The position numbers and the translations under genes are program-made. Positions 7,654-15,522 of a stretch of 64,000 nucleotides of DNA are shown here, one piece after another. Under the pieces are notes generated by a model, which did not search any database, was not told where the DNA came from, and worked only from the letters and a program-made list of their open reading frames with translations. The stretch's first letter is position 1. Every line of letters begins with the position of its first letter. Origin of the DNA: Thalassolituus hydrocarboniclasticus. GTDB taxonomy: Bacteria; Pseudomonadota; Gammaproteobacteria; Pseudomonadales; Oceanobacteraceae. The stretch covers positions 2,448,448 through 2,512,447 of the forward strand of contig NZ_CP054475.1 of assembly GCF_025345565.1 (NCBI RefSeq). The letters run 5' to 3'.

Positions 7654-8349
7654 ATGTCCCTGTTTAAACAGGATAATCAGGGCACAATCCGCTTTGCGCA
7701 CAGCGCCACCCATATCGCTCTGACGTTACCTGAGCCCTGGCCGGTGCTGAGTTCTGCGGTACTCAACGGCGGCTTTGGCAGTACCCACAGCCTGCTTAAC
7801 CTGCGTGTTGATCAGCATGCACCGCCGCCCTGGCCACCAGCAGAACAGACCCTGCAACAACAGGCTGAACAGCTTATGCTGCCAGTGCCCTGCTGCGGCA
7901 TGATGACCGCCGCCTCCATGAAATCACTGGGCTACAGCAGCCTGAGCCTGCAACAACTGCGCGCCGAATGCTGGGTAACCGCCGGACTTTCCAATCTGCG
8001 CCGCAGCGGCGATCCGGCCGATGCTTTTGCCGGTGCCGGAACCATTAATATCTGGCTGCTGCTGCATTTTGCCCTGACCCCGGCGGCTATGGCCGAAGCC
8101 CTGATCCAGCTGACCGAAGCCAAGGTTACCGCCATCCGCGATGCTGAGCTGCTCAGCCCTTTATCCAACCTGCCCGCCAGCGGTACCGGCACCGACAGTC
8201 ATGCAGTGATCTGCCCACCGCTGCCTGCCCATGGTGAAGCCCTCGCTTTTTGCGGCAAACATACCCTGGCCGGCGAGCTGATTGGCCGTGTGGTATTGGA
8301 CGCCTGCGAGCAGAGCATCGGCCACTGCTTGCGCGCTGCAGCCAGCTGA
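7654..8349 (+). CDS. cbiZ: Adenosylcobinamide amidohydrolase, CbiZ family
   Basis: CbiZ cleaves the aminopropanol tail from adenosylcobinamide to give adenosylcobyric acid, letting the cell remodel scavenged corrinoids. The 231-residue product shows family signatures recalled from known members: [12 protein letters not shown] near residue 30, [13 protein letters not shown] near 87, the GDPAD and GTINI segment near 125, [13 protein letters not shown] near 170, and the C-terminal YCGKHTLLGEL-like [13 protein letters not shown]. No other cobalamin gene or cobalamin riboswitch is visible, so the salvage partners must be encoded elsewhere. The 251 bases after the gene contain only unconvincing open frames. 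The ribosome binding site is weak. Confidence 0.82.
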
Positions 8350-8600
8350 TCCCGCCACTTCAGCAGCAGCTGAGCTGCGCAATATGACCACTTTGCCCGG
8401 CAGTAACTGACACCTCTGCCAATGCGCCACCAGCGCCAAACTGCGAACCTGCCAGCGCTGCCTGTGTTTTATTCTGCCAGGCAGAGGGCCGGTCACGCTG
8501 TATCTCCCCCGTAACACCCATCGCAACACCGCGTCGCGATACCGCCACCGCAGCGTCCGGCCCTGACAATAATTACAACGATCCACTGAGGGCAGATTGT

Positions 8601-9911
8601 ATGGCTAAAGATATTCAGGGACTGGGCCTTGGCCTGGCCAGTCGCTTTGCCGGCAGCCGTTGGGCTGAAAAATACGGGCTGCGTAAACCCGCCGAGCGCA
8701 TCGCTTACCTTTCCACCCGCGCCGGTTTTAAATTTGCCGGCGAAATGATGCAGAAGCGTGCACAAAAACAGGACAGCACCCGTGGCGAACGCCTGCCGGA
8801 ACGTAAGCCCCAGGCCCTGTTTGATCTGAGCTTAAGTGAAGAGCAACAGATGATCCGCGACAGCGTGCGCTCCTACGCGGAAGAAATCGTACGCGGCCTG
8901 GCCCACGACGCCGACGAAAACCTGCAACTGCCCGACAGTTATCTGCAGGACGCCATGGCCCTGGGTCTGAATCTGTTCTCGGTGCCCGAATCTCTGGGCG
9001 GTGCGGCACAAAGCTACAGCCCGACCACCAGCGCCATCATTGCCGAAGAACTGGCCTGGGGCGATTTTACCCTGGCCTATGCTGCCCTCGCCCCCGTGGG
9101 GGTCGCCAACGCACTGGTGCGCTGGGGCACACAACAGCAACAGCAACGCTGGCTGCCACTGTGGCTGGCCGAGCAACCGGTAACTGCCGCTATTGCCCTG
9201 CAGGAACCGCATCCGCTGTTCGCCCCCGATAAGCTGACCTGCAGCGCCAAAAGCAATAAGCAGGGCTATGTGCTGAATGGCGTGAAAACCCTGGTGCCTT
9301 TTGCCGGTAACGCCGATCTGTATCTGGTTGCCGCGCTGCTGAATGGCAAACCACAACTCTTTATTGTGCCCGGCGACAGCCATGGCCTGAACTTTACCCG
9401 CAGCCCGGCGATGGGTCTGCGCGCCGCCGCCTCCGGCACCCTGACACTGGATAAAGTGCAGGTGAATGTCGATGCCCTGCTGGGTGGTGAAGACAGTGAT
9501 TTCGATTACCGCGCCTTTGTCGATCTTGGCCAGCTGCACTGGTGCGCCCTGGCCATCGGCACCTGTCAGGCCGCACTGGATTACCTGATTCCTTACTGCA
9601 ACGAGCGTGAAGCCTTCGGCGAGCCCATCAGTCACCGCCAGTCAGTGGCCTTTATGATCGCCAATATCGCCATCGAACTGGAATCCATGCGCCTGCTCAC
9701 CTGGCGTGCGGCCGCACTGGCCGAACAGGGTCAGCCATTCCACCGCGAAGCCTATCTGGCCCATGTTCTGTGTGCCGACAAAGCCATGGAAATCGGCACC
9801 AATGCCGTGCAACTGCTCGGCGGCCACGGCTTTACCAAAGAACATCCGGCTGAACGCTGGTACCGCGACCTGCGCATTCTGGGTTGTGTTAACAGCGGTC
9901 TGCACCTGTAA
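8601..9911 (+). CDS. Acyl-CoA dehydrogenase homologue, divergent and probably non-catalytic
   Basis: This 436-residue protein has the acyl-CoA dehydrogenase fold after an extra N-terminal segment of about 75 residues. The N-terminal domain (SLSEEQQMIRDSVRSYAEE), middle domain and C-terminal helical domain (NEREAFGEPISHRQSVAFMIA) are recognisable. The usual FAD-loop motif TEP..GSD is replaced by QEPHPLFAPDK, and the C-terminal Glu-Gly-Thr with the catalytic base is missing (the end reads RDLRILGCVNSGLHL). It lies 12 bases before an intact acyl-CoA dehydrogenase, so the two may form a heteromer in which this subunit is structural. An alternative is a different activity on the same fold. GAGG lies 9 bases before the ATG. 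Confidence 0.88.
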   Translation: MAKDIQGLGLGLASRFAGSRWAEKYGLRKPAERIAYLSTRAGFKFAGEMMQKRAQKQDSTRGERLPERKPQALFDLSLSEEQQMIRDSVRSYAEEIVRGLAHDADENLQLPDSYLQDAMALGLNLFSVPESLGGAAQSYSPTTSAIIAEELAWGDFTLAYAALAPVGVANALVRWGTQQQQQRWLPLWLAEQPVTAAIALQEPHPLFAPDKLTCSAKSNKQGYVLNGVKTLVPFAGNADLYLVAALLNGKPQLFIVPGDSHGLNFTRSPAMGLRAAASGTLTLDKVQVNVDALLGGEDSDFDYRAFVDLGQLHWCALAIGTCQAALDYLIPYCNEREAFGEPISHRQSVAFMIANIAIELESMRLLTWRAAALAEQGQPFHREAYLAHVLCADKAMEIGTNAVQLLGGHGFTKEHPAERWYRDLRILGCVNSGLHL

Positions 9912-9923
9912 GGAGAACAGCAT

Positions 9924-11132
9924 ATGATGAATCTTGAAGTTCCGAAGAAATTCCGCCCGCTGGTCAATCAGGCCCGTCAGGTTGCCGAACATGTCTTCCG
10001 CCCGATCTCGCGTAAATATGACCGCGCCGAACACGCCTATCCGGTCGAGCTGGATATGCTGGCCGCCATTATGGATGGCATGAACGACGGCACCCTGGGC
10101 GAAGGCGCCGGTGCCGGCAAACTCAAACAGGATAAGAAAAAAACCGACGGCATCGTTAACAGCACCAATATGACCACGGTACTGGGGCTGCAGGAACTGT
10201 GCTGGGGGGATGTTGGCCTGTCATTAACCCTGCCACGCCAGGGATTGGGTAACGCCGCGATTGCCGCAGTAGCCAATGATGAACAGCTGGCCCGTTTCGG
10301 CAAAAAATGGGCAGCCATGGCGATTACCGAGCCGGGCTGCGGTTCGGATTCTGCCGCCATCCGCACCACCGCGGTCAAAGACGGCGATCATTATGTGCTG
10401 AACGGCGAAAAGATTTACGTCACCTCCGGTGAGCGTGCCGAAGCCGTGGTGGTCTGGGCCAGCCTCGACCGTAATATCGGCCGCGCGGCCATTAAATCCT
10501 TTGTGGTGGAAAAAGGCACCCCCGGCATGGAAGTGGTGCGCCTGGAAAAGAAACTCGGTATTAAAGCCTCTGACACCGCCGCCATTACCTTTACCGATTG
10601 CCGTGTGCCTGCGGCCAACCTGCTGGGTTCACCGGAAATCAATGTCGATCAGGGCTTTGCCGGTGTCATGCAAACCTTCGACAACACCCGCCCGGTAGTT
10701 GCCGCCATGGCCGTCGGCGTGGCTAAAGCCGCCCTCGACCGCAGCCGCGAGCTGCTGAAAGAGTACGGCATCAGCGCCGGCTACCGCACCAGTATTAAAA
10801 ACAGCAGCCAGATCGAAGCGCAGCTGTACCGCTACGAAGCCGACTGGGAAGCCGCCCGGTTGCTGACGTTAAAAGCCGCGTGGATGGCCGATAATGGCAT
10901 GCCTAATTCGAAAGAAGCGTCGATGTCAAAAGCCAAAGCCGGACGCAGTGCCAACGCCATCACCTTAGGTTGTGTCGAATTGCTTGGCTCATTGGGTTAC
11001 AGCGAAGATGAATTACTGGAGAAATGGGCGCGGGATTCAAAAATTCTCGATATTTTTGAAGGCACGCAGCAAATTCAGCAACTGATTATTGCCCGCCGTT
11101 TATTGGGTAAAAGCTCAGCCGAATTGCGCTGA
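9924..11132 (+). CDS. Acyl-CoA dehydrogenase, catalytically intact
   Basis: This flavoenzyme should introduce the alpha-beta double bond into an acyl-CoA. The 402-residue protein has the FAD/substrate loop MAITEPGCGSDSAAIR, the middle-domain motif GEKIYVTSGERAEAVVVWA and the C-terminal DIFEGTQQIQQ, whose glutamate (residue 379) is the expected catalytic base. An AAGGAG lies 8 bases before the ATG, and the gap to the preceding homologue is only 12 bases, so the two are one operon. An acyl-CoA synthetase follows in the same direction, giving an activation plus first-oxidation set. Chain-length preference cannot be read from sequence. Confidence 0.94.
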   Translation: MMNLEVPKKFRPLVNQARQVAEHVFRPISRKYDRAEHAYPVELDMLAAIMDGMNDGTLGEGAGAGKLKQDKKKTDGIVNSTNMTTVLGLQELCWGDVGLSLTLPRQGLGNAAIAAVANDEQLARFGKKWAAMAITEPGCGSDSAAIRTTAVKDGDHYVLNGEKIYVTSGERAEAVVVWASLDRNIGRAAIKSFVVEKGTPGMEVVRLEKKLGIKASDTAAITFTDCRVPAANLLGSPEINVDQGFAGVMQTFDNTRPVVAAMAVGVAKAALDRSRELLKEYGISAGYRTSIKNSSQIEAQLYRYEADWEAARLLTLKAAWMADNGMPNSKEASMSKAKAGRSANAITLGCVELLGSLGYSEDELLEKWARDSKILDIFEGTQQIQQLIIARRLLGKSSAELR

Positions 11133-11168
11133 TTTGCACACTATTCAGAGGTGCCCTAGATAAAACCT

Positions 11169-11206
11169 GACATAAATCCTGTGGCCCGGCCGGCAGGATT
11201 TATGTC
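11169..11206 (+). repeat. Perfect 13-bp inverted repeat between the dehydrogenase and acyl-CoA synthetase genes
   Basis: Arms GACATAAATCCTG (11169-11181) and CAGGATTTATGTC (11194-11206) enclose a GC-rich 12-base loop. No T-run follows directly, so a classical terminator is doubtful. It may be a transcript-processing or stabilising hairpin, a weak terminator, or a protein-binding palindrome in front of the synthetase gene. Confidence 0.7.
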
Positions 11207-11250
11207 ATTCTCGACTTCATAACTATAAATACATCACCAAGGTCAGATCC

Positions 11251-13125
11251 ATGAATCGTTCAGCGACTACCCGCCTGCCCGCCGAAGGCATGAGCCAGCC
11301 GCCCCTGAAACCGCGCACTGTCAGTCTGGTTAATATTATCCGCAGCGCCATCATCGGATTACCGGATATCGGCATCACCCTGAAAGGCGTACTCGCGCTG
11401 GCAACCACCAAGCCGGAAAAAAACAAATCCATTGGTTTATTGCTGGAACAACACGCCGCCCGCCAGCCGGATCATATTGCCATCCGCTATCAGCAGCAGC
11501 GCATCAGCTACCGTCAGCTGAACGAAAAAGTGAATCAGCTGGCCCACTATTTTGCCAGTCAGGGCATCAGCCATGGTGATACCGTCGGCGTCATGCTGGA
11601 AAACCGCCCGGAAACCCTGCTGGCCGTACTGGCCACAGTTAAACTCGGTGCCATTGCCAGTATGTTTAATACGTCCCAGCGCGGTGAAGTGCTGGAGCAC
11701 AGCATTAATCTGGTCAAACCCAAACTGCTGGTTGTCGGTGAAGAAATGCTGGGCAATATGGCAACGGTCGAACATGCTCTGCCTGCCGCATTAAAAATGC
11801 AGTTATATTTCTGGCAGGATGGTGCTGACAGTCGGCACGAATGTCCGGGCCATTATCAGAATATTGAGCAGGTGATCGCCTCACAGGACAAAAATAACCC
11901 GGCCAGTACACCACAGGTAAAAATGCATCAGCCCTGCTATTACATTTTTACTTCCGGCACCACCGGTCTGCCCAAAGCCTCAGTCATGAGCCATTACCGC
12001 TGGTTTAAATCCATGGCAGGTATGGGCCTGGCATCGATGAAATTACGCAAAGACGATGTGCTCTATGTCAGCCTGCCGCTGTACCACAACAATGCCTTAA
12101 CCGTATCACTGGCCGCTGTTCTTGGTGCCGGTGCCTGCATTGCAATTTCGCGTAAATTCAGTGTCTCGCGTTTCTGGGATGAAATCCGCGACTATGGTGC
12201 CACCGGCTTCTGCTATATCGGTGAATTGTGCCGTTATCTGCTGAATACAGCACCGTCAGACAAAGACCAGCTGCATAATATCCGCGTGATTATCGGCAAC
12301 GGTCTGCGTCCGGATATCTGGATGGAATTCAAGCAGCGTTTCAATATTAAACACATCAACGAATTTTACGGCGCCAGCGAATGCAATCTGGTCTTTACCA
12401 ATGCATTAAATCTCGATCAGACCGCGGGTATCTGCCCGCTGTCTTACAACATCGTGGCCTACGATATTGAAAACGACGAACCGCTGCGGGATAAAAAAGG
12501 TTTTATGTTGCCGGTTAAAAAAGGTGGCACAGGGCTGTTAATCACCGAGGTCAACGACAAGCAGCCGTTTGAGGGTTATACCGACGCCGAAGCGAGCCAG
12601 AAAAAACTGTTCCGCAATGTCTTTAAAAAAGGCGATTGCTGGTTTAATACCGGTGATCTGGTGCTGAACCAGGGTTTTAAACACGTCGCTTTTGCTGACC
12701 GTCTGGGGGATACCTTCCGCTGGAAAGGCGAGAACGTGGCCACCACTGAGGTGGAATCCATCCTGATGGAATTTGCCGATATTGAGCATGCGGTGGTGTA
12801 TGGCGTGGAAGTACCCCACACCGATGGCCGTGCCGGTATGGCCGCACTCACCCTGCGCGCCGGGGCCGACATTAACTGGAATGCTCTGACCCTGCACCTG
12901 CGCGAAAAATTACCGGCCTACGCCATTCCATTATTTTTGCGCCTGCGTCCGCAGGAAGAAGTGACCGGTACGTTTAAATACCGCAAGGTGGAGTTAAAAG
13001 ACGAGGCCTTCCATCTGGCCAGAGTCAGCGATCCGCTGCTGGTACTAAGCGGTAAAAATGAGCCTTATCAGCCATTAACACCGGCACTAGAGCAAGCCAT
13101 TAATAACGGCCAGCTCAGCCTGTAA
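11251..13125 (+). CDS. Long-chain acyl-CoA synthetase (FATP/FadD6-like)
   Basis: This 624-residue AMP-forming ligase activates fatty acids with ATP and CoA. The P-loop motif TSGTTGLPKASVMSH (around residue 235), the A5 region INEFYGASECN and the AMP-binding motif FNTGDL with DRLGDTFRWKGENVATTEVE are all present, as is the C-terminal GTFKYRKVEL containing the catalytic lysine. The order and spacing match the fatty-acid transport protein subgroup of long-chain or very-long-chain synthetases. AAGG lies 8 bases upstream of the ATG. It follows the two acyl-CoA dehydrogenase genes, suggesting that a fatty acid is activated here and then oxidised. The physiological substrate is not known. Confidence 0.92.
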   Translation: MNRSATTRLPAEGMSQPPLKPRTVSLVNIIRSAIIGLPDIGITLKGVLALATTKPEKNKSIGLLLEQHAARQPDHIAIRYQQQRISYRQLNEKVNQLAHYFASQGISHGDTVGVMLENRPETLLAVLATVKLGAIASMFNTSQRGEVLEHSINLVKPKLLVVGEEMLGNMATVEHALPAALKMQLYFWQDGADSRHECPGHYQNIEQVIASQDKNNPASTPQVKMHQPCYYIFTSGTTGLPKASVMSHYRWFKSMAGMGLASMKLRKDDVLYVSLPLYHNNALTVSLAAVLGAGACIAISRKFSVSRFWDEIRDYGATGFCYIGELCRYLLNTAPSDKDQLHNIRVIIGNGLRPDIWMEFKQRFNIKHINEFYGASECNLVFTNALNLDQTAGICPLSYNIVAYDIENDEPLRDKKGFMLPVKKGGTGLLITEVNDKQPFEGYTDAEASQKKLFRNVFKKGDCWFNTGDLVLNQGFKHVAFADRLGDTFRWKGENVATTEVESILMEFADIEHAVVYGVEVPHTDGRAGMAALTLRAGADINWNALTLHLREKLPAYAIPLFLRLRPQEEVTGTFKYRKVELKDEAFHLARVSDPLLVLSGKNEPYQPLTPALEQAINNGQLSL

Positions 13126-13158
13126 TGCGCACCAGTGCCTTCCGGCAGCCCACAGCAA

Positions 13159-15522
13159 TTATTGCTGTGGGTTGTCGATCATCTCTCCCAGTGCCTGCAG
13201 GTCGAAGGGCTTGGTCATATAACCGTCGACACCGGCATCCTGCGCCTGACGGATCTGATCCGGCAAAGCATCAGCACTGACCCCATAAATACGCACATGA
13301 CGTAACTCCGGCATCGCGCGTAATTTTTTCAGCACATCCAGACCATGAATATCCGGCAGACGCATATCCAGTAAAATAACGTCCGGGGTCTGCTGCTGCG
13401 CCATATCCATGCCTTCGCGGCCGGTACGGGCAATGGCAACATCGAGATTGTCACGACGCTTCAGACCCAGCTCAACAAAGCGGGCATTAATCGGGTTATC
13501 TTCGATATACAGCACACGGCGCTGATTTTCGGCGACCTTCTGCTTTTGTCCCACCGGCACACCGGAATAAACCGGCGGAATAGCATTAAACGAGTACATC
13601 GGTGCCGTCTGCGGCAGTTCCAGCCAGAAACAACTGCCCTCACCTTCGCGGCTGCTGAAATTCAGCACGCCATTCATACGACTGGCCAGTAAGCGACTGA
13701 TCACCAGACCCAGACCATTCCCTTCAATGAGGTTTTGCTCACTGCCAAAGCGCTGAAAAGGGGTAAAGAGAGCGGCCTGATCTTTGTCTGCTATACCGCA
13801 GCCAGTGTCACGGACACTGATCCGTAAGCGCTCGTTTTCCGCAGACTCAATGCGGATATCCACGCTGCCACCCTCACGGTTGTATTTGATCGCATTGCTG
13901 AGCAGGTTAAGAATAATCTGCTTACAACGCACCCGGTCGGCGTATATCCAGGGTTCGGCAACCTCGCTGTGCATGCGGATACGGACACCACAGGCTAAAG
14001 CAGTGGCACGCAGCATCTCACAGCATTCTTCCAGTAAGGTCAGCACCGCGACAGCCTCCATCTGCGGAGGGGTGATATGACCTTCGATTTTGACCAGATC
14101 AAGCACCTGATCAACCAGATCCACCAGATGCTTACCGGCACGCTCAATCATGTCGATAGCTTCTTTCTGCCCAGGTAACTGCAGCTCCGGCTTCAGCAAC
14201 TGACTGAAGCCAATCACCGCATTTAAAGGGGTACGCAGTTCATGGCTGAGCCCGGCAATAAAGCGGGCATTATCGGTCAGGGCATGGAAAGGAGCACGGT
14301 CATCAGCAGCACCATTAGCAACACCATCAGCGCTGGCAACCGGCGCAGATAAAGGTACAGGCGCTCCGGACGGTCGCTCTGTCGCTGTCAGTAACAGCAA
14401 CTTCTGACCATCCTGCTCGTGGGACTGTAACTGCAGCTGCAGGCTGTCTTCGTTATGCCGCGTTTTTTGCAGCCCATCCTGCAACTGAAAATGCCGGAAC
14501 CACTCAACAAAGCCTTCCGACTCCAGCATCTGCACCTGACACCCCTTCACCGAGCGCGCACTCAGACCAAAGCGGCGCGCATAGGCTTCGTTAGCCTGCA
14601 GCACTTCACCGTCAGCCGTCAGTAATGCCAGCGGCTGAGGCAACGCATTCAGCAGGTGCTCTCCATCGGCCGAGGCTGAGCGACTGAATAATGGCAGCGA
14701 CGAGATATCAAGACTGATAGCCACAATGCCCATGGCCTCACCGGCGGCATCGCGCAGAACATTTTTACTGGTCAGGAAACGCAGGGTCTCTGTCTCTGCC
14801 GCTGCCTTCACCGCAGCAGCGCTATGGCGGGTAGCCAAAAAGGGTTCAAGAAAAACACGGAACCCCTCAGCATGACTGACTTCCTCATCGGTGCGCTGCT
14901 GCAATGCCGCCCACTGCGGGGTAAACAGCTCGCTGTCAGTGCGCCCCACAGCATCACGGGAGTTGATGCCCAGCAGGCTTTCTGCGCGGTGATTCAGCAG
15001 CAGGTAACGGCCTTTCATATCCTTAACCGTTACTGCTGCCGGAGTATGGTCCAGCACACTGCCCAGCCAGGCCTGATCACCCTGCTGGGTGCGGTTCTGC
15101 CCCGCTAAAGAGGCGGTTAAATCATGAACAATCGCAGTAAAGCTACGCTCACCGCCCAGGTTCATCTCACTGACCGACAGATGCAGCAAAAATTCTTCGC
15201 CGTTTTTACGTAAACCAGGCAACTCACGGCCACGCCCCATCACCGTGGCGTGTCCTTTATGCAGGTACTCTTCAATATAACCCTGATGGCGCTGACCATG
15301 GCGAACCGGCATCAGCATAGCGATGTTCTCGCCCAGTAGTTCCTCTGCTTCATAACCGAAAATACGGCAAAGCGCCGGATTGCAGGCCTGAATCTGCCCA
15401 TCACTGTTGATCGTCACAATCCCGGCCGCCGCCGTGTCGAACAATATCTGATACAACTCACTGTCGTTTTTCATATTCAGACGGGTCACCATCTGTCTGA
15501 CCCGGCCATAAAGACTTGGCAT
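13159..15522 (-). CDS. Multi-PAS hybrid sensor histidine kinase with C-terminal receiver
   Basis: This 787-residue protein appears cytoplasmic, with no transmembrane helix. In order it has a PAS domain (about 18-135), a second PAS (about 150-275), a third shorter PAS (about 285-370), a linker rich in Ala/Gly, a HisKA domain (LSHELRTPLNAVIGF, His427), a HATPase domain (NLLSNAIKYN, DTGCGIAD, GNGLGLVIS) and a receiver domain (phospho-acceptor Asp719 in LLDMRLPD, Lys in MTKPF). The kinase could autophosphorylate and pass phosphate to its own receiver; no phosphotransfer domain or output regulator is adjacent, so the pathway is unknown. AGGAG lies 9 bases before the ATG. A minus-strand TATAAT at 15588-15593 may be its -10 box. 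Confidence 0.95.
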   Translation of the reverse strand: MPSLYGRVRQMVTRLNMKNDSELYQILFDTAAAGIVTINSDGQIQACNPALCRIFGYEAEELLGENIAMLMPVRHGQRHQGYIEEYLHKGHATVMGRGRELPGLRKNGEEFLLHLSVSEMNLGGERSFTAIVHDLTASLAGQNRTQQGDQAWLGSVLDHTPAAVTVKDMKGRYLLLNHRAESLLGINSRDAVGRTDSELFTPQWAALQQRTDEEVSHAEGFRVFLEPFLATRHSAAAVKAAAETETLRFLTSKNVLRDAAGEAMGIVAISLDISSLPLFSRSASADGEHLLNALPQPLALLTADGEVLQANEAYARRFGLSARSVKGCQVQMLESEGFVEWFRHFQLQDGLQKTRHNEDSLQLQLQSHEQDGQKLLLLTATERPSGAPVPLSAPVASADGVANGAADDRAPFHALTDNARFIAGLSHELRTPLNAVIGFSQLLKPELQLPGQKEAIDMIERAGKHLVDLVDQVLDLVKIEGHITPPQMEAVAVLTLLEECCEMLRATALACGVRIRMHSEVAEPWIYADRVRCKQIILNLLSNAIKYNREGGSVDIRIESAENERLRISVRDTGCGIADKDQAALFTPFQRFGSEQNLIEGNGLGLVISRLLASRMNGVLNFSSREGEGSCFWLELPQTAPMYSFNAIPPVYSGVPVGQKQKVAENQRRVLYIEDNPINARFVELGLKRRDNLDVAIARTGREGMDMAQQQTPDVILLDMRLPDIHGLDVLKKLRAMPELRHVRIYGVSADALPDQIRQAQDAGVDGYMTKPFDLQALGEMIDNPQQ

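Follow-up and report, generated by a model that had tools for sequence, protein, structure and literature searches.

Two adjacent genes of Thalassolituus hydrocarboniclasticus very probably encode the unequal subunits of a single obligate alpha2beta2 acyl-CoA dehydrogenase (ACAD) of the FadE24/FadE23 type, which most likely acts on long-chain acyl-CoA in the opening reaction of beta-oxidation. The genes were found in a window of 64,000 nucleotides (contig NZ_CP054475.1, positions 2,448,448 to 2,512,447 of the forward strand), and the genome it comes from is a single contig of 4.07 Mb. All coordinates below are those of the window. A pair of this kind is already known: it is the counterpart, in an oil-degrading bacterium, of a mycobacterial gene pair, and the find is real and largely expected. 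The first-pass annotation regarded such a heteromer as little described, which does not hold, since alpha2beta2 ACADs of actinobacteria as well as of proteobacteria have been reviewed, Scd1AB of Pseudomonas among them (PMC8399759), and the present pair appears to be orthologous to FadE24-FadE23.

Layout of the gene pair

Gene 1 (8601..9911, + strand) encodes a FadE24-type ACAD of 436 amino acids with a 73-residue N-terminal extension, the putative helper subunit, and gene 2 (9924..11132, +) encodes a FadE23-type ACAD of 402 amino acids, the putative catalytic subunit. The names helper and catalytic subunit are used here for the two proteins because "alpha" denotes the catalytic subunit in the steroid literature. 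Both products are acyl-CoA dehydrogenases according to Pfam. The open reading frame coordinates confirm that the genes are separated by exactly 12 bases. The AGGAG ribosome-binding site of gene 2 (9911..9915, +), 8 bases before its ATG, overlaps the stop codon of gene 1, which suggests that translation of the two genes is coupled. A promoter scan of positions 8300-13300 found no promoter.

Gene 3 (11251..13125, +) lies 118 bases downstream of gene 2 and encodes a FadD6-like long-chain acyl-CoA synthetase (PRK08279, 798 bits with a cut-off of 625). Upstream of the pair, at 7654-8349, is a gene for a CbiZ adenosylcobinamide amidohydrolase, which is kept in this position in approximately half of the host-family loci.

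Division of the FAD site between the two proteins

In MCAD the FAD spans the interface of two subunits. One of them gives the flavin pocket and the catalytic base, while residues around Arg281 and Gln349-Gly353 of the partner hold the ADP half of the cofactor. Every MCAD subunit therefore has both half-sites. The residues of the window proteins were mapped to the human MCAD sequence in an alignment that held helper orthologues (45 close, 6 distant), catalytic orthologues (43 close, 8 distant) and 40 ordinary ACADs. The ordinary ACADs carry both residue sets, the flavin and base side as well as the ADP side, and Ser/Thr142, Thr168 and Glu376 are kept in all 40.

The helper has lost the flavin side. 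The position of MCAD Ser142 is occupied by Phe207 (codon 9219..9221, +), with Phe in 44 of the 45 close orthologues, and that of Thr168 by Pro233 (9297..9299, +), with Pro in 42. Ser or Thr at both positions is found in none of the helpers in the whole alignment, and Phe207 would be expected to block the flavin pocket. At the C-terminal end, MCAD Glu376-Gly377-Thr378 is replaced by Asn431-Ser432-Gly433, where the codon aligned to the catalytic Glu is 9891..9893 (+). The helper has Gly at MCAD 255 in helix G, and thus Glu at neither of the known base positions. The first-pass annotation had reported that gene 1 lacks the Glu-Gly-Thr end and the FAD loop; both losses were confirmed and are fixed across the 45 orthologues, which shows that they are not accidental. 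Eight of these do have Glu at the 376 position, in no case with Gly-Thr after it. What is constantly lost in the helper is the flavin pocket; the base Glu is missing from most of the orthologues but not from all.

The ADP side is intact in the same protein. Arg336 (codon 9606..9608, +), Phe339-Gly340, Gln347, Gln404 and Gly407-Gly408 correspond to MCAD 281, 284-285, 292, 349 and 352-353, and the stretch Gln404-Leu-Leu-Gly-Gly408 (9810..9824, +) to Gln349-Gly353. MCAD Arg281, Phe284, Gly285, Gln292, Gln349, Gly352 and Gly353 are all present in 45 of 45 close helpers. Structure prediction gave a good monomer model of the helper, which confirms the ACAD fold only. The N-terminal extension (8601-8816, about 73 residues) is predicted with low confidence to be helical and contains Gly42-Phe43, which is invariant in the aligned set; it is also found in the Nocardia and Rhodococcus orthologues.

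The catalytic subunit shows the opposite pattern. Gene 2 was described in the first-pass annotation as retaining both motifs, including Glu379, and this is correct: the flavin/pyrophosphate loop TEPGCGSD is found at residues 135-142 (10326..10349, +), with MCAD Ser142 and Asp143 present in all 43 close orthologues, and the predicted catalytic base and its loop, Glu379-Gly380-Thr381 (11058..11066, +), are kept in the same number. MCAD Thr136, Ser142, Asp143, Thr168, Glu376, Gly377 and Thr378 are present in all 43, except for one Ser at 136. The stronger half of the pattern had been missed, namely that gene 2 has lost the FAD contacts of the ADP side. Its product lacks MCAD Arg281, Gln292, Gln349 and Gly353, and these residues are substituted in nearly all catalytic orthologues (Gln292 to Ser in 35, Gln349 to Glu in 38). 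Arg281, Gln349 and Gly353 occur together in none of the catalytic subunits in the alignment; two more distant ones (L045 and L048) retain Arg281 and Gln349 and lack Gly353. A complete FAD site is found in none of the aligned orthologues of either protein.

Gene 2 is under strong purifying selection (dN/dS 0.013-0.022). The structural model of its product was poor (mean pLDDT 58) and could not be used. The N-terminal domain (9924-10316) is atypical, with 19 bits against the Pfam N-domain model, which is below the cut-off, and with a variable charged loop in place of the usual PEEYGG region.

Crystal structures of ChsE4-ChsE5 and ChsE1-ChsE2 show one subunit with the bound flavin ring and the Glu, and a partner that makes the contacts to the ADP-ribose (PMC11153573). 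The residues of the window proteins are divided in the same way, which suggests that the pair is one enzyme. In such enzymes a single FAD forms per heterodimer, and activity requires the heteromer (PMC8399759). Adjacent genes, a single subunit with Glu and flavin pocket and a partner with the ADP-side residues, all of which are found here, would place the pair in the alpha2beta2 class. The gene 2 protein would then bind the acyl-CoA and the flavin ring and carry the catalytic base Glu379. The gene 1 protein would have no flavin of its own and would use its Arg, Phe-Gly, Gln and Gly-Gly residues to grip the ADP portion of the FAD in the gene 2 protein. The tetramer would thus have two active sites and not four. 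Neither protein alone would be expected to bind FAD or to be active; we infer both this inactivity and the tetramer itself from the residue pattern.

Co-inheritance and relationship to FadE24-FadE23

The two genes are practically always found together. Among 293 genomes sampled from the host order, the helper gene is present in 58, the catalytic gene in 58 and both in 57. One of the two exceptions is a 65%-complete assembly, and in the other a gene is cut at a contig end. In a sample of 299 genomes from the phylum, the same 11 genomes carry the helper and the catalytic gene. The catalytic gene is next to the helper gene on the same strand in 74 of 76 cases, at a distance of 12-265 bases measured between match ends. 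The obligate heteromer that had been proposed is thus supported by the reciprocal loss of FAD contacts as well as by co-occurrence.

The long form of the pair occurs, among others, in Thalassolituus, Oleispira, Ketobacter, Alcanivorax, Alloalcanivorax, gamma proteobacterium HdN1 and Agitococcus, and also in Acinetobacter, Nocardia farcinica and Rhodococcus. The gene order is the same in the Nocardia, Rhodococcus and Acinetobacter pairs. A shorter type, whose helper has about 370-380 amino acids and lacks the N-terminal extension, was also seen (L049, L051, L127, L129 and L130), and this paralogous pair is often present in genomes that have the long form as well. In two relatives within the order (G078:C40:172254-174709 and G137:C207:8750-11205) the helper gene precedes a tandem of two catalytic-type genes, and both genomes have an additional distant catalytic-type gene elsewhere; the tandem genes are possibly alternative partners for one helper. 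Pairs were found on the plasmid-labelled sequences NZ_CP104448.1 (4.1 Mb) and NZ_LN868939.1 (2.7 Mb), which are chromosome-like in size, so plasmid carriage cannot be deduced from them. A pair is also found on the 38.5 kb plasmid p5 of Rhodococcus DN22.

Identity to the Nocardia pair is 50% for the helper and 65% for the catalytic subunit, and to the Rhodococcus pair 47% and 62%. In the phylogenetic tree the proteins from these two genera nest within both long-form clades, with support of 100 and 98. In Nocardia and Rhodococcus the pair is preceded by a gene for a hisN-type phosphatase, like impC in the Mycobacterium tuberculosis order impC-pflA-fadE24-fadE23-fadB4 (PMC2834668). Because of this clade membership and synteny, the window genes are taken as orthologues of fadE24 and fadE23, the link to Rv3139-Rv3140 running through Nocardia and Rhodococcus. 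The likeness, as seen in the Nocardia and Rhodococcus orthologues, comprises gene order, size class, N-terminal extension and residue pattern. The difference lies downstream, where a gene for a FadD6-like synthetase comes next in the host family and fadB4 in M. tuberculosis.

FadE23-FadE24 has been spoken of as a complex, with reference to a 2013 paper on heterotetramers, and deletion of the FadE24 orthologue MAB_3486 in M. abscessus increased free fatty acids and decreased triacylglycerol (PMC11980559). Papers on the mycobacterial complex also cite labelling by an ATP probe and propose that it may bind ATP and have a different activity. It is accordingly conceivable that the complex exists but has a role outside ordinary acyl-CoA dehydrogenation, such as sensing or the binding of nucleotides. 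This is improbable, though it is the alternative that survives best. The residues of the flavin pocket and the EGT loop do not vary among the 43 close catalytic subunits, in keeping with a conserved dehydrogenase chemistry, and an FAD enzyme would also be expected to label with an adenine probe.

Steroid-type enzymes, homotetramers and origin

The first-pass annotation compared the pair with the heteromeric dehydrogenases of steroid degradation in actinobacteria. The comparison is valid for the architecture: in ChsE4-ChsE5 (FadE26-FadE27) and Tcur3481-Tcur3483, as in the window, the genes adjoin, one subunit has the flavin ring site and the base, and the other has the ADP side. It fails for the catalytic base, which is placed elsewhere, and the pair stands apart in the tree, although a single origin was not rejected. 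All six steroid-type or PimC-like catalytic subunits, FadE26 and Tcur3483 included, have Glu at MCAD 255 in helix G and Gly or Ala at 376. The catalytic subunit in the window has Thr at 255 and Glu at 376, in the C-terminal loop, and so does not have the helix-G base of the steroid class.

A steroid- or polycyclic-CoA dehydrogenase of the ChsE/Scd/PimCD class is therefore an unlikely identity for the pair, even though the reciprocal losses recur in Tcur3481/Tcur3483, FadE26 and IpdE2/PimC-like pairs. In a quick tree both subunits were separated from both steroid subunit types and grouped with ordinary ACADs (support 96). AU tests, on the other hand, permit union of the helper with the steroid helper (p 0.58) and of the catalytic subunit with its steroid counterpart (p 0.35), as well as the two subunits as sisters (p 0.61). 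The only steroid marker tried, IpdE2 (NF050027), had no match over the cut-off in this genome, and there is no steroid cluster among the conserved neighbours of the pair. The position of the base and the absence of the IpdE2 marker led to rejection of a steroid assignment. PimC-PimD, the pimeloyl-CoA dehydrogenase, and its dicarboxylate relatives are also two-gene ACADs for which a heterotetramer has been proposed (PMC12543098). The window proteins scored 26-60 bits against TIGR03203/TIGR03204, where the cut-offs are above 600.

Slightly less probable still is that the genes are tandem paralogues whose products each form a homotetramer of their own, with an alternative base in the gene 1 protein. 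The fold is that of the MCAD and SCAD homotetramers, the catalytic subunit shares the MCAD base and Thr255-Arg256, the ACAD domains are kept in both proteins, and the helper gave a good monomer model. However, each protein of the pair has one half-site with the FAD site incomplete in every aligned orthologue, the helper in the window has no Glu at a known base position, and the genes are practically never inherited apart. Decay of gene 1, as its missing active-site motifs could suggest, can be dismissed because the selection data contradict it (dN/dS 0.035-0.053, strong purifying selection), the ADP-side residues are invariant and the gene is intact in dozens of genomes across wide divergence.

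The obligate FadE24/FadE23-type heteromer thus remains the preferred reading. That the two heteromer classes arose independently is suggested by the quick tree but is not established, given the unions that the AU tests allow. A wider proposal can be made only tentatively and is rather doubtful: FadE24/FadE23 might be a second obligate heteromeric ACAD class, which arose separately from an MCAD-like ancestor by mutual loss of half-sites, kept its base in the C-terminal loop and has a long-chain role in hydrocarbon-degrading gammaproteobacteria and mycobacteria.

Substrate and biological significance

The substrate may be long-chain acyl-CoA, a guess with about an even chance of being right. It is based on the adjacent FadD6-like synthetase, the MCAD-like active site, the hydrocarbon-degrading life of the carriers and the phenotype of the FadE24 orthologue in M. 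abscessus. The link to the synthetase drawn in the first-pass annotation is real: all 10 host-family loci whose flanks are long enough have the synthetase gene after the pair. Outside the host family this adjacency is missing, except in one genome, L127, where the synthetase is 3.5 kb away, and the pair is an autonomous unit with varying neighbours. The link is a host-family feature, and synteny with the synthetase was rejected as a general property of the pair.

The domain of the E. coli type of FadE, PF09317, is absent from this genome, which would make the pair a candidate for the sole long-chain dehydrogenase. This was rejected because at least five further FadE-like proteins, with the PF12806 domain, are encoded in the genome, so that the pair is not the only long-chain candidate. 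In proteomic papers on growth on alkanes in Alcanivorax and Oleispira, of which the Alcanivorax paper names several ACADs, none was matched to the pair.

It is misleading to annotate either gene on its own as "acyl-CoA dehydrogenase", and expression of a single gene would be expected to fail. Split-site dehydrogenases do not seem to be tied to steroids, as the same reciprocal loss is also found here, where the base is placed differently. The pair is spread over oil-degrading Pseudomonadales (Thalassolituus, Oleispira, Alcanivorax and Ketobacter) and Acinetobacter, and a harmless marine strain might be a convenient place to learn the role of the uncharacterised FadE23-FadE24 complex of mycobacteria.
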